Assembly: GCF_000300235.2 (NCBI RefSeq) | Contig: NZ_CP004388.1 | Span: 787,501 to 851,500, forward strand | DNA from: Thalassospira xiamenensis M-5 = DSM 17429 | Lineage (GTDB): Bacteria; Pseudomonadota; Alphaproteobacteria; Rhodospirillales; Thalassospiraceae | Reading direction: 5' to 3' | DNA: 64,000 bases | Part shown: positions 1 through 13,410 of the stretch, in pieces | Numbering within the stretch: position 1 is the first letter of the stretch | Layout: every line of letters begins with the position of its first letter | The notes under the pieces: model-generated | The model's input: the letters and a program-made list of their open reading frames with translations, nothing else | Told to the model about the DNA's origin: nothing | Databases searched by the model: none | Translations under genes and position numbers: made by a program

Positions 1-462
1 TTCAAGTGCACGCGCCAGCAGGTAATGGGAAACGGAAAGTTCAACCAGATTGACGTTTTGCCCCTTGATGGCGGCAAGGTCAGTTGCGTTTTTCAGGATG
101 ATGCCGTCATTGCCGTTGGAATAATCGCCAACAATCAGGGCGGTGGTATCAACGCCGCCACCGGCCGGGATCGAAAGCGCGTCCATATTGGTCATTGAGC
201 AGCCGTCATATTCGCCGACGGTATATTGGTTGATCGATTCAACGTAATCGTTGATCTGCACGATATCGACCGAGATGTCGTATTTGTCGGCCCATTTTTT
301 CATGATGCCGCTATCTTGCAGATACCCCCACGGCATCCAGCCAACATAGATCGACCAGCAGACTTTGAAATCGGACTTTTGTTCGGCGTGGGCGGGTAGG
401 GAAGCCAAAGAGGCAGAAAGGACGGCGGCAAACGAAAGTGTTTTGAAAAACGTCTTTAACAT
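1..462 (-). CDS. ABC transporter periplasmic substrate-binding protein (guanidine/urea type), 3' part outside window
   Basis: This is the N-terminal 154 residues of a NitT/TauT-like periplasmic binding protein; the rest lies left of base 1. The start is ATG at 462-460 with AGGAG about 8 bases upstream. It begins with a Sec signal peptide (MLKTFFKTLSFAAVLSASLA, cleavage near AHA-EQ), then KVCWSIYVGWMPWGY and GIMKKWADKYDI, which I recall as typical of the binding protein annotated as urea carboxylase-associated. Family knowledge: these transporters occur with urea/guanidine carboxylase genes under guanidine riboswitches and are now thought to import guanidine. The riboswitch in its own leader supports guanidine as ligand. 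Permease and ATPase genes should lie outside the window. Confidence 0.85.
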   Translation of the reverse strand, partial: MLKTFFKTLSFAAVLSASLASLPAHAEQKSDFKVCWSIYVGWMPWGYLQDSGIMKKWADKYDISVDIVQINDYVESINQYTVGEYDGCSMTNMDALSIPAGGGVDTTALIVGDYSNGNDGIILKNATDLAAIKGQNVNLVELSVSHYLLARALE

Positions 463-577
463 GTGTGCGCTCCTGCTTGTTTTGCGGATCACTTCGGATC
501 AGTCAATTCAAGAAAGGCTCTTGCACACAAACCGGGAGAAGGCTTGTGCGCGACAAACCTGTGCAGTTGTCTCCCGG
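462..577 (-). promoter_or_regulatory. Predicted translational expression platform of the guanidine riboswitch
   Basis: Three mutually exclusive pairings can be drawn on the minus strand. (1) CCGGGAGA, part of the aptamer core (577-570), can pair with TCTCCCGG (539-532). (2) GCGCACAA (551-544) can pair with TTGTGTGC (530-523), one G-U, which traps TCTCCCGG in the loop. (3) TGTGTGC (529-523) can pair with GCACACA (468-462), lying between the Shine-Dalgarno AGGAG and the A of the start codon. Ligand binding should favour (2) and free the ribosome site; without ligand (1) breaks (2) and allows (3). No U-tract follows, so translational control is more likely than termination. The mechanism is inferred. 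Confidence 0.55.
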
Positions 578-677
578 GATTTTGGCCCGCCGTGTCACCA
601 GCCTGTGAAACTCTGGCTGGCTTGCGCCTCTTGGACCAGCATTCCTTTCGGAACCGGAACCCTAGGCGCGCTGCACA
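560..677 (-). ncRNA. Guanidine-I riboswitch aptamer (ykkC family)
   Basis: On the minus strand, the leader of the binding-protein gene carries the hallmark blocks of the guanidine-I class in order: CTAGGGTTCCG near 665-655, TGGTCCAAGAG at 638-628, ACACGGCGGG at 595-586, then AAAATCCCGGGAGA ending at 570. The whole is closed by a perfect 7-bp P1 stem, TGTGCAG (677-671) with CTGCACA (566-560). The class is recognised from these motifs, not from a covariance-model search. It senses free guanidinium and normally switches on export, degradation or uptake genes, which fits the gene that follows. Confidence 0.93.
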
Positions 678-974
678 CTCAAACAGAAGCAATGCATATG
701 CCAGTCACCTGAAATACGTCTTTGGATGTTGGTAATGCTATGGAAATAAAGGATAATACTAATGTTAGTGACGCTGCCTGTTGCGCGAAATGAATATATG
801 CAGCGCACAAATTTTGATTAAAAAATGACCATAAAAATAAATATGATCAAAAATAATGCATCTTCCGTGCGTGTAATGTGTGCTGGCATCGTGCATTGGC
901 TTTTGGTAAAGAAGCGCCAATATTGACGGGCATGCCCGCACTTTACCCCATGCAAAGACCGGAGAATTCAAGCG

Positions 975-11243: not shown

Positions 11244-12376
11244 TCCTTGCGGTTGCCTGCCGTGCCGTCAATCAGCGGACGGAAGCCCGATGCAACAATC
11301 TTCGAGCCGATCCTGCGCATAAGGGTATTGCGCAACCAGACACCGGTCTTGCCGCGGATTTTGGCGAAACCCATGCGTTGCAGGGATTGTTGCTGGACCC
11401 AGTGTGCTTCGGGCAGTCGGGCGGCCTGCCAGTCGGCAAGCGCGGTTGTGATATCGGATTGCGCGCGAAAGGCATTGGCCAGTGCCAAGCCATCCTTGAT
11501 CGATTGCGTTGCCCCCTGTGCCATGGTCGGAAGGGTGCCATGTGCCGCATCCCCGATCAGGGCCACACGCCCCGCAACCCATTCGGGCATGACCATTTGC
11601 TGAAGACGGCCTTCGTGAATGATGGTGTCCGTTCCGATTGTGCCGAGCATATCGCGCACTGGACCATCAAACCGGGCAAAATGGGCGGCAAGCTCGCTTG
11701 TCGGCAAGTCGTGTATTCTTTCGCCCGGATCATAGGTGCTGGCATAGATATAAAATCGGCTATCCCCCACCGGCATCACCAGAATAACCTGCCCGTGACC
11801 GATGATGAATTTGGGCGCTGTCAGGCCGAAGGGATGATCCGTGATCCAGCGCCAGCAGATATAACCGGTCGGCTGCGGGACATGTTCCGGGCCAAAAACC
11901 AGGCGTCGAACGGCTGAATTGATCCCGTCCGCACCGATCACAAGATCAAAGCTGCCGGTCGTGCCGTCAGTAAAACGAACCTGTGCCTGATCGGGTGCGT
12001 TACTGATGTCGGATACGGAAAGACCAAACCGGATGGTCGGTGTTGTCAGTCTGGCGCACAGGATTTCGTGAAAGTCGCTACGCGTCAGGGCCTGAAATGT
12101 CGGCCAGCCGAGCTGTTCGGTTTCAAGCGCAAACAGTTTCCGGTCACGATGATCGAAATAATCCAGTCGTGGAAAGGCACAGGATTTGTCGGCAACATCC
12201 TGATCAATGCCAAGGTCTCGAAGGGCCGTCACCGCATTGCCGGGCAGGTGCAACCCCGCCCCGGTGGGTTTCCAGCCATCAAGGGTTTCGGCAATCGTAA
12301 TGTCATGTCCGTCGCCTTGCAGGGCAATGGCCGCAGACAAACCGGCGATGCCGCCGCCGACAATCAGAATGTTCAT
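11240..12376 (-). CDS. FAD-dependent aromatic-type monooxygenase
   Basis: A 378-residue group A flavoprotein monooxygenase. It shows the Rossmann GxGxxG (ILIVGGGIAGLSAAIAL, residues 4-20), the DG motif (DLVIGADGINSAVRR, about 155) and the GD motif (RVALIGDAAHGTLPTMAQGA, about 280). Such enzymes use NAD(P)H and O2 to hydroxylate aromatic or related substrates. The sequence resembles the salicylate/6-hydroxynicotinate hydroxylase type, but the substrate cannot be assigned. It lies 35 bp downstream of moaA on the same strand, so it may be cotranscribed, although no functional link is obvious. Confidence 0.87.
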   Translation of the reverse strand: MNILIVGGGIAGLSAAIALQGDGHDITIAETLDGWKPTGAGLHLPGNAVTALRDLGIDQDVADKSCAFPRLDYFDHRDRKLFALETEQLGWPTFQALTRSDFHEILCARLTTPTIRFGLSVSDISNAPDQAQVRFTDGTTGSFDLVIGADGINSAVRRLVFGPEHVPQPTGYICWRWITDHPFGLTAPKFIIGHGQVILVMPVGDSRFYIYASTYDPGERIHDLPTSELAAHFARFDGPVRDMLGTIGTDTIIHEGRLQQMVMPEWVAGRVALIGDAAHGTLPTMAQGATQSIKDGLALANAFRAQSDITTALADWQAARLPEAHWVQQQSLQRMGFAKIRGKTGVWLRNTLMRRIGSKIVASGFRPLIDGTAGNRKD

Positions 12377-12411
12377 TTTATGCCTGTAACTGGAATGGGG
12401 TGATGTTCGGA

Positions 12412-13410
12412 TCAGCCGCCCGTCATGCTCATATGGCGACCGACTGCGGGTTTCTGGCCCTTGCGGTCGATGACGAAATCATGGCCCTTGGGTTTCAGCA
12501 GCATGGCTTCGTCAAGTAGACGATCAAGGGTTTCGGGTGCGCCCGAGCGGAGGGCCGCGCGCAGATCAACGTGGTCTTCCTGACCAAGGCACATGTAAAG
12601 CGTACCGGTACAGGTGACGCGCACGCGGTTGCAGCCCTCACAGAAATTATGGGTAAGCGGTGTTATGAAACCAAGACGCCCGCCGGTTTCGGCCACCGTG
12701 ACATAGCGCGCCGGGCCGGGGGTGACATATTCGGACGGGATCAGAGTATATTCCTGTTCCAGCCGTTCACGAACGGCGGTCAGCGGCAGATATTGATCTG
12801 TGCGATCCCCGTCAATATCGCCAAGCGGCATGGTTTCAATCAGGCAAAGATCAAAGCCTTCCTTGCCGCACCAGGCGACAAGACGGGAAATTTCGTCTTC
12901 GTTGAAATTGCGAAGGGCGACCGTGTTGATCTTGATCTTGAGCCCCGCCTGTTTGGCAGCTTCAAGCCCGCTTAGCACCTGTTCAAGGCGGCCACGGCGG
13001 GTGATTTCGGCGAATTTCTGATGATCAAGACTATCAAGCGAGATGTTGAGCCGTTTGACGCCAAGACGTGCCAGATCATCGGCGTAGGTCGCAAGCTGGC
13101 TGCCATTGGTCGTCATGGTAAGTTCGTCAAGCGCACCGGATTTAAGATGACGCGACAAATCCCTGATCAGGTCCATGATGCCACGGCGCACCAGTGGCTC
13201 GCCCCCGGTCAAGCGCAGTTTGCGTACACCGCGCGCAATGAAGGCCGAACAGAGCTGATCGAGTTCTTCAAGTGTCAGGACTTCGGATTTTGGCAGAAAG
13301 ATCATGCTTTCGGCCATGCAATAGGTGCAGCGGAAGTCACAGCGATCCGTCACCGATACCCGAAGGTACGATACATGGCGGCCATATTTGTCAATCAGCG
13401 GTCTGGTCAT
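12412..13410 (-). CDS. moaA: GTP 3',8-cyclase MoaA
   Basis: A 332-residue radical SAM enzyme for the first step of molybdenum cofactor synthesis, converting GTP to 3',8-cyclo-GTP with MoaC. The N-terminal cluster motif is CDFRCTYC (Cys at about 24, 28 and 31). The C-terminal cluster ligands are in [20 protein letters not shown] (about 258-277). The sequence ends SMTGG, so the C-terminal Gly-Gly needed for activity is present. The length is normal. No other moa gene lies in the window. Confidence 0.97.

Follow-up and report, generated by a model that had tools for sequence, protein, structure and literature searches.

According to two reports, guanidine-I riboswitches (ykkC subtype 1, Rfam RF00442) usually act on transcription (PMC12186494; PMC11410670); guanidine-driven translational ON control is there ascribed to guanidine-II and guanidine-III, whose aptamers are different ones (PMC12186494). 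In PRPP/ppGpp riboswitches (ykkC subtype 2), the ends of the PRPP aptamer form a closing helix, P0, which is tied to the expression platform and, as a feature of that aptamer, also recognises part of the ligand; the same work states that P0 is absent from guanidine-I (PMC6031431). A guanidine riboswitch accompanied by guanidinase and ABC-transporter genes is described for the Synechocystis sll1077 operon, a group that includes hypA and hypB, and guanidinase activity is reported there for Sll1077 (PMC8390497).

Here, we analysed a 64,000-nucleotide stretch of the Thalassospira xiamenensis M-5 genome (hereafter the window), for which a preliminary description had proposed a guanidine-I riboswitch with a translational ON switch. 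On the evidence of its sequence and that of its relatives, the locus reads as a well-supported variant of a known riboswitch class. It shares with other guanidine-I RNAs an aptamer score above the cut-off and downstream genes for guanidine transport and breakdown, and it differs from the usual description in probably acting on translation and in carrying a covarying P0. Its P0 recalls the PRPP/ppGpp riboswitches, from which its guanidine-type genes and guanidine-I model match set it apart.

A guanidine-I aptamer upstream of a putative guanidine importer operon

Unless noted otherwise, positions are those of the window and features lie on its minus strand. An Rfam scan of the whole window placed RF00442 at 676-569 (76.4 bits against a gathering cut-off of 63 bits, E 8e-12, model positions 1-107), and this was the sole family above its cut-off, which also separates the RNA from guanidine-II and guanidine-III. 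The covariance-model match thus bears out the class assignment of the preliminary description, which had proposed this very check. In the 4.77-Mb host genome the aptamer is the single guanidine-I match at E ≤ 0.001; the class is present in 6 of the 29 genus genomes searched, and 33 of 297 genomes of the host's order gave matches, 25 of them above the cut-off. By model score and by gene context (importer genes and a ureohydrolase downstream), the window RNA is, at the level of sequence, a true guanidine-I member, and its aptamer would be expected to bind guanidinium.

The gene that follows (1-462, continuing beyond the window and complete on the adjoining stretch L007 at 11892-12962) starts with an ATG at 462-460, preceded by the Shine-Dalgarno (SD) sequence AGGAG at 474-470. 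It encodes an ABC-transporter substrate-binding protein that matches TIGR03427, 'putative urea ABC transporter substrate-binding protein', with 542.8 bits against a cut-off of 333.9. On L007 it is followed by genes for a permease, an ATPase, a ureohydrolase and a small His-rich protein. The ureohydrolase scores under the NCBIfam agmatinase cut-offs. Among PDB entries it matches 7esr/7oi1, 'probable agmatinase 2', most strongly (349 residues, 537 bits) and 9fek next (526 bits); we take these to be the Synechocystis guanidinase Sll1077/GdmH and a Nitrospira guanidinase, respectively. Because a guanidinase-like ureohydrolase lies in the operon and the switch belongs to a guanidine class, the annotated 'urea' is best read as guanidine, and the 'urea' binding protein of the preliminary description is more plausibly a guanidine importer subunit.

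Among the relatives listed, 72 of 80 loci carry the ureohydrolase gene and 71 of 80 that for the His-rich protein, some of the misses being due to short contigs. The latter protein (L007, 8281-8790, minus strand), encoded next to the ureohydrolase gene, has histidines at both ends and found no match in Pfam, NCBIfam or PDB; a role in nickel delivery is a guess. In this respect the operon, with a His-rich protein of no matched family after the ureohydrolase, differs from the sll1077 group with its hypA and hypB. A urease alpha subunit gene lies elsewhere in the host genome, and urease could degrade the urea released from guanidine.

A predicted sigma-54 type promoter whose transcript would begin with P0

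Comparative data came from at least 80 loci related by the binding protein, 78 of 80 with the aptamer core upstream; L004-L006 and, from a search of the order that recovered loci from 30 of 33 matching genomes, another 22 of 24 loci bring the set to 103. L048, L084, L028 and L030 were left out for want of the core motif, and L001-L003 as copies of L040, L032 and L033. L048 encodes the binding protein and the ureohydrolase, yet no guanidine-I core can be recognised ahead of these genes.

Upstream of the aptamer lies a sigma-54 type −24/−12 motif, TGGCATATGCATTGCT (GG-N10-GC, 703-688), which agrees with the consensus at 10 of 12 positions. The transcription start that it predicts, at 677, is the first base of P0; counted from the C of the −12 GC (689), it lies 12 nt downstream. 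Motifs agreeing at 9 or more of the 12 positions occur at 71/103 loci vs 8/926 control windows, and those agreeing at 10 or more at 67/103 vs 1/926; for the bare GG-N10-GC the counts are 77/103 and 216/926. At 42 loci the predicted starts gather 12 nt upstream of the aptamer core, and loci with names of the Rhodobacteraceae type or of Gammaproteobacteria mostly do not have the motif. Transcription of the leader may therefore depend on sigma-54. Sigma-54 promoters often serve nitrogen-stress genes, and the predicted promoter suggests nitrogen control of the operon. The start of a guanidine-I leader in Magnetospirillum gryphiswaldense, mapped 2 nt inside the Rfam match (PMC9549626), is compatible in position with the predicted +1. 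A stretch at about 879-895 (minus strand), TGCACGATGCCAGCACA, lies 230 nt upstream of the core and differs at two positions from an NtrC-like palindrome; such sites, at two mismatches or fewer, occur at 25/103 loci and in 40/515 letter-shuffled controls.

In P0, UGUGCAG at 677-671 pairs with CUGCACA at 566-560. The stem described earlier as a 'perfect P1' is probably this helix, since the interval reported for it begins at 677. Across 100 loci (L027, L029 and L031, which have no P3 pattern, were dropped), P0 pairs at 5 or more of 6 positions in 73 when shifts of 0, 2 or 3 are allowed. The mean of 5.19 compares with 4.00 (maximum 4.36) in 1000 trials with 3′ strands swapped among loci, the locus-wise choice among three registers favouring the observed value over the swaps. 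We rely on this near-fixed register test; with a free register the values were 6.11 against 5.61 (maximum 5.86 of 200 swaps, 99 rows). L050 scores low in the former, yet its helix is present in the latter, and the score of 5 at L011 is probably chance. The pair GUGCAG/CUGCAC occurs in 50 loci, and both sides are changed in AUGCAG/CUGCAU (2), GUGCGG/CCGCAC (2), GCGCAG/CUGCGU (2) and CAGCGC/GCGCUG (1). Scores below 5 characterise 18 of the 19 loci from the order outside Thalassospira and all five loci with gammaproteobacterial names (L093, L098, L101, L106 and L107). As a covarying closing helix in the relatives of the window RNA, P0 is well supported by sequence comparison. The Rfam consensus leaves these aptamer ends unpaired, and the window RNA, with a covarying P0, departs from the published account of guanidine-I as lacking it (PMC6031431); we treat the RNA as a variant because the absence of P0 is a description of the class and not its defining feature.

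Mutually exclusive helices that would gate the ribosome-binding site

Downstream of the aptamer, two alternative folds can be drawn. In the OFF fold, the 3′ arm of aptamer helix P3 (577-570) is reused as the 5′ strand of helix B, whose 3′ strand is UCUCCCGG (539-532), and helix E joins AGGUUUGU (560-553) to ACAAGCCU (547-540). The ON fold contains helix C, an 11-pair hairpin with the loop UUCUCCC, in which an anti-anti-RBS strand (551-541) pairs with 533-523. The last seven bases of the latter, UGUGUGC (529-523), are the anti-RBS, which in the OFF fold forms helix D with GCACACA (468-462), between the SD and the start codon: the target lies directly 3′ of AGGAG and takes in the A of the ATG. 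P3 and C are incompatible with B and E, and D is incompatible with C. The competing helices proposed in the preliminary description hold up, and its TGTGTGC and GCACACA words are present where it had put them; comparative data from relatives favour a translational switch. In 5000 shuffles of the 14-nt anti-RBS stretch of the window, a D of equal strength arose in 0.46%.

We read this architecture as most likely a guanidine-I riboswitch that works as a translational ON switch, and consider this reading probable, because the leader is complementary to its own ribosome-binding site (RBS) and most relatives are missing a T-run. In this model, transcription would start at 677 from the sigma-54 type promoter. 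With guanidinium bound, the aptamer, P0 and P3 would hold together and UCUCCCGG would stay in and beside the loop of hairpin C, which would sequester the anti-RBS and make the ribosome site cheaper to open. Without ligand, UCUCCCGG would capture the P3 3′ arm to form B, with E stacked on B, so that C could not form; the anti-RBS would then pair with GCACACA over the start codon as D and block initiation on the importer and guanidinase operon. Both the effect of the ligand on translation and this order of folding are those that the modelled helices imply.

Conservation of the platform among relatives

The platform is common to many relatives. For 25 aligned leaders, picked by eye from 32 for the common platform, a choice that favours the structure (L005, L006, L045, L063, L064, L068 and L085 are not among them), the ON structure was paired in 95.2% of cells, compared with 25-40% when slid. 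Its covariation score of 0.218 exceeded that of shuffled alignments (0.112; 0/500 reach it). Helix C alone was 91.2% paired and scored 0.174 vs 0.124 in shuffles (0/500 reach it), although two-sided changes in its pairs were no commoner than in shuffles (318/500 reach). The OFF helices B and E were 90.7% paired (47/500 shuffles reach) with little covariation: their score lay above shuffles (1/500 reach), and 495/500 shuffles reached their two-sided changes. Helix B is without covariation of its own because hardly any variation occurs in the one of its strands that lies beyond the aptamer.

For helix D, complementarity averaged 14.35 vs 12.76 when targets were swapped (0/300 reach) over the 58 of 72 leaders that could be scored, the remainder having no B-strand pattern; within a 30-sequence family, 2/300 swaps reached the observed value. 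Its partners change between clades with pairing kept, from UGUGUGC/GCACACA in the window to UAUGUGC/GCACAUA (L040), GUGCGC/GCGCAC (most Roseibium-type loci), CGUGCGC/GCGCACG (L053), UUUGUGC/GUACAAA (L055) and CUCGGC/GCCGAG (L068). The 14-nt span used in this test misses a 7-pair GCTCGGT/ACCGAGC, seen by eye in L057. Mesorhizobium loci mostly have a short, 4-pair D in the form found here. In a related platform of the Mesorhizobium loci L065-L090, GAACCCC could, as judged by eye, pair directly with the SD AGGGGU.

Computed access to the ribosome-binding site

When the leader was folded from 677 to 430 with helices forced, opening 475-460 cost 9.7 kcal/mol with B and E and 3.3 kcal/mol with aptamer, P0 and C; with other 3′ ends the costs were 9.9 vs 3.8 and 11.9 vs 5.0 kcal/mol. 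Forcing fewer pairs and scoring the region from −13 to +2 gave 9.9 kcal/mol in the OFF fold and 3.8 kcal/mol in the ON fold of the window. The two forced folds of the window lie 0.4 kcal/mol apart (−86.3 and −85.9 kcal/mol), near-equal energies being what is expected of a poised switch in such a model. By computation, then, a helix that blocks the RBS is excluded by the ligand fold, as in a translational ON switch. In either fold the SD takes part in a weak local hairpin, which in the ON fold costs 2.4 kcal/mol to open. Because this hairpin persists in the ON fold, the earlier proposal that ligand frees the ribosome site is better worded as ligand lowering its opening cost.

Across the 25 leaders, the OFF−ON difference in RBS opening exceeds 0.5 kcal/mol in 24 and averages 4.7, with small values in L040 (0.8), L055 (−0.3) and L056 (0.6 kcal/mol). 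When clades exchange their RBS ends, the mean falls from 4.7 only to 4.0, so that the energy test is weakly specific.

We folded the leader from 677 because GCUUCUGUUUG is not in the RNA if the predicted +1 is right; this choice depends on the promoter prediction and works in favour of the translational reading. From 690, with the same helices forced, the contrast is only 12.4 vs 10.8 kcal/mol. In folds from 690, GCUUCUGUUUG (690-680, minus strand) is paired to the SD region, CAAGCAGGAGC, and transcripts that start at or upstream of 690 could form this pairing. Whole-leader equilibrium folding was set aside as a direct switch test, its outcome varying with the assumed 5′ end. With the 5′ end placed some 10-13 nt ahead of the predicted +1, forcing the aptamer rather than leaving it free gave a difference of 0.0 for the window, above +0.5 in 11/25 leaders and below −0.5 in 3/25.

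Alternative outputs of the switch

If the long, bulged B/E hairpin of the OFF fold, followed by UUUGUGU, acted as an intrinsic terminator, RNA polymerase itself would stop in the absence of ligand. This would fit the usual transcriptional description of the class (PMC12186494; PMC11410670), and in the window T makes up 5 of the 8 bases that follow UCUCCCGG. Relatives that keep the same helices do not keep the T-rich stretch, however: the twelve Roseibium-type relatives have 1 T of 8 after helix B, and a count of 5 of 8 is confined, among the 25 leaders, to the window and L032. A simple ungapped scan for a stem plus T-run, blind to bulged hairpins such as B/E, returned 0/91 leaders, 19 of which (from the order search) were represented by a stretch of set length, at most 160 nt, and not by the exact leader; with shuffles averaging 1.45, this zero does not stand out strongly from chance. 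The sole terminator-like site on the window strand between 400 and 1000 lies upstream of the aptamer. We regard termination as an unlikely main output, and slightly less likely still is one in which Rho-dependent termination or mRNA decay follows blocked translation: a review's figure legend mentions Rho alongside translational OFF switches (PMC7266159), but complementarity facing the RBS would still put translation first. That the aptamer stands alone, with C and D as chance products of GU/CA-rich sequence, is very improbable: the anti-RBS and its target are indeed simple GT/CA-type words and the energy swap control is weak, but the shuffle and target-swap results for D speak against chance, and clades with different words still pair.

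A possible AND gate on guanidine use

Translational control by guanidine is thus the reading that we carry forward. Slightly favoured, in our judgement, is a wider proposal, that alphaproteobacterial guanidine-I RNAs form a variant in which a sigma-54 transcript uses its first bases to close the aptamer as P0, and guanidine gates translation. The importer and guanidinase operon would then be an AND gate, reading nitrogen status at the promoter and guanidine at the RNA. Titles and abstract openings in an open library, outside which most subscription papers fall, yielded no guanidine-I switch of the translational kind and no link to sigma-54, nor a P0 or sigma-54 start for guanidine-I. If the proposal is true, a widespread guanidine riboswitch class is more than a terminator device, the helix said to set PRPP/ppGpp apart from guanidine aptamers occurs in guanidine-I as well, and many Alphaproteobacteria treat free guanidine as a nitrogen source whose use is subject to nitrogen control.

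We also observed that the ureohydrolase of the host genome (on L007) is 96.6% identical to that of Roseibium L034, compared with 84% for the binding protein, reflecting either strong constraint or transfer.
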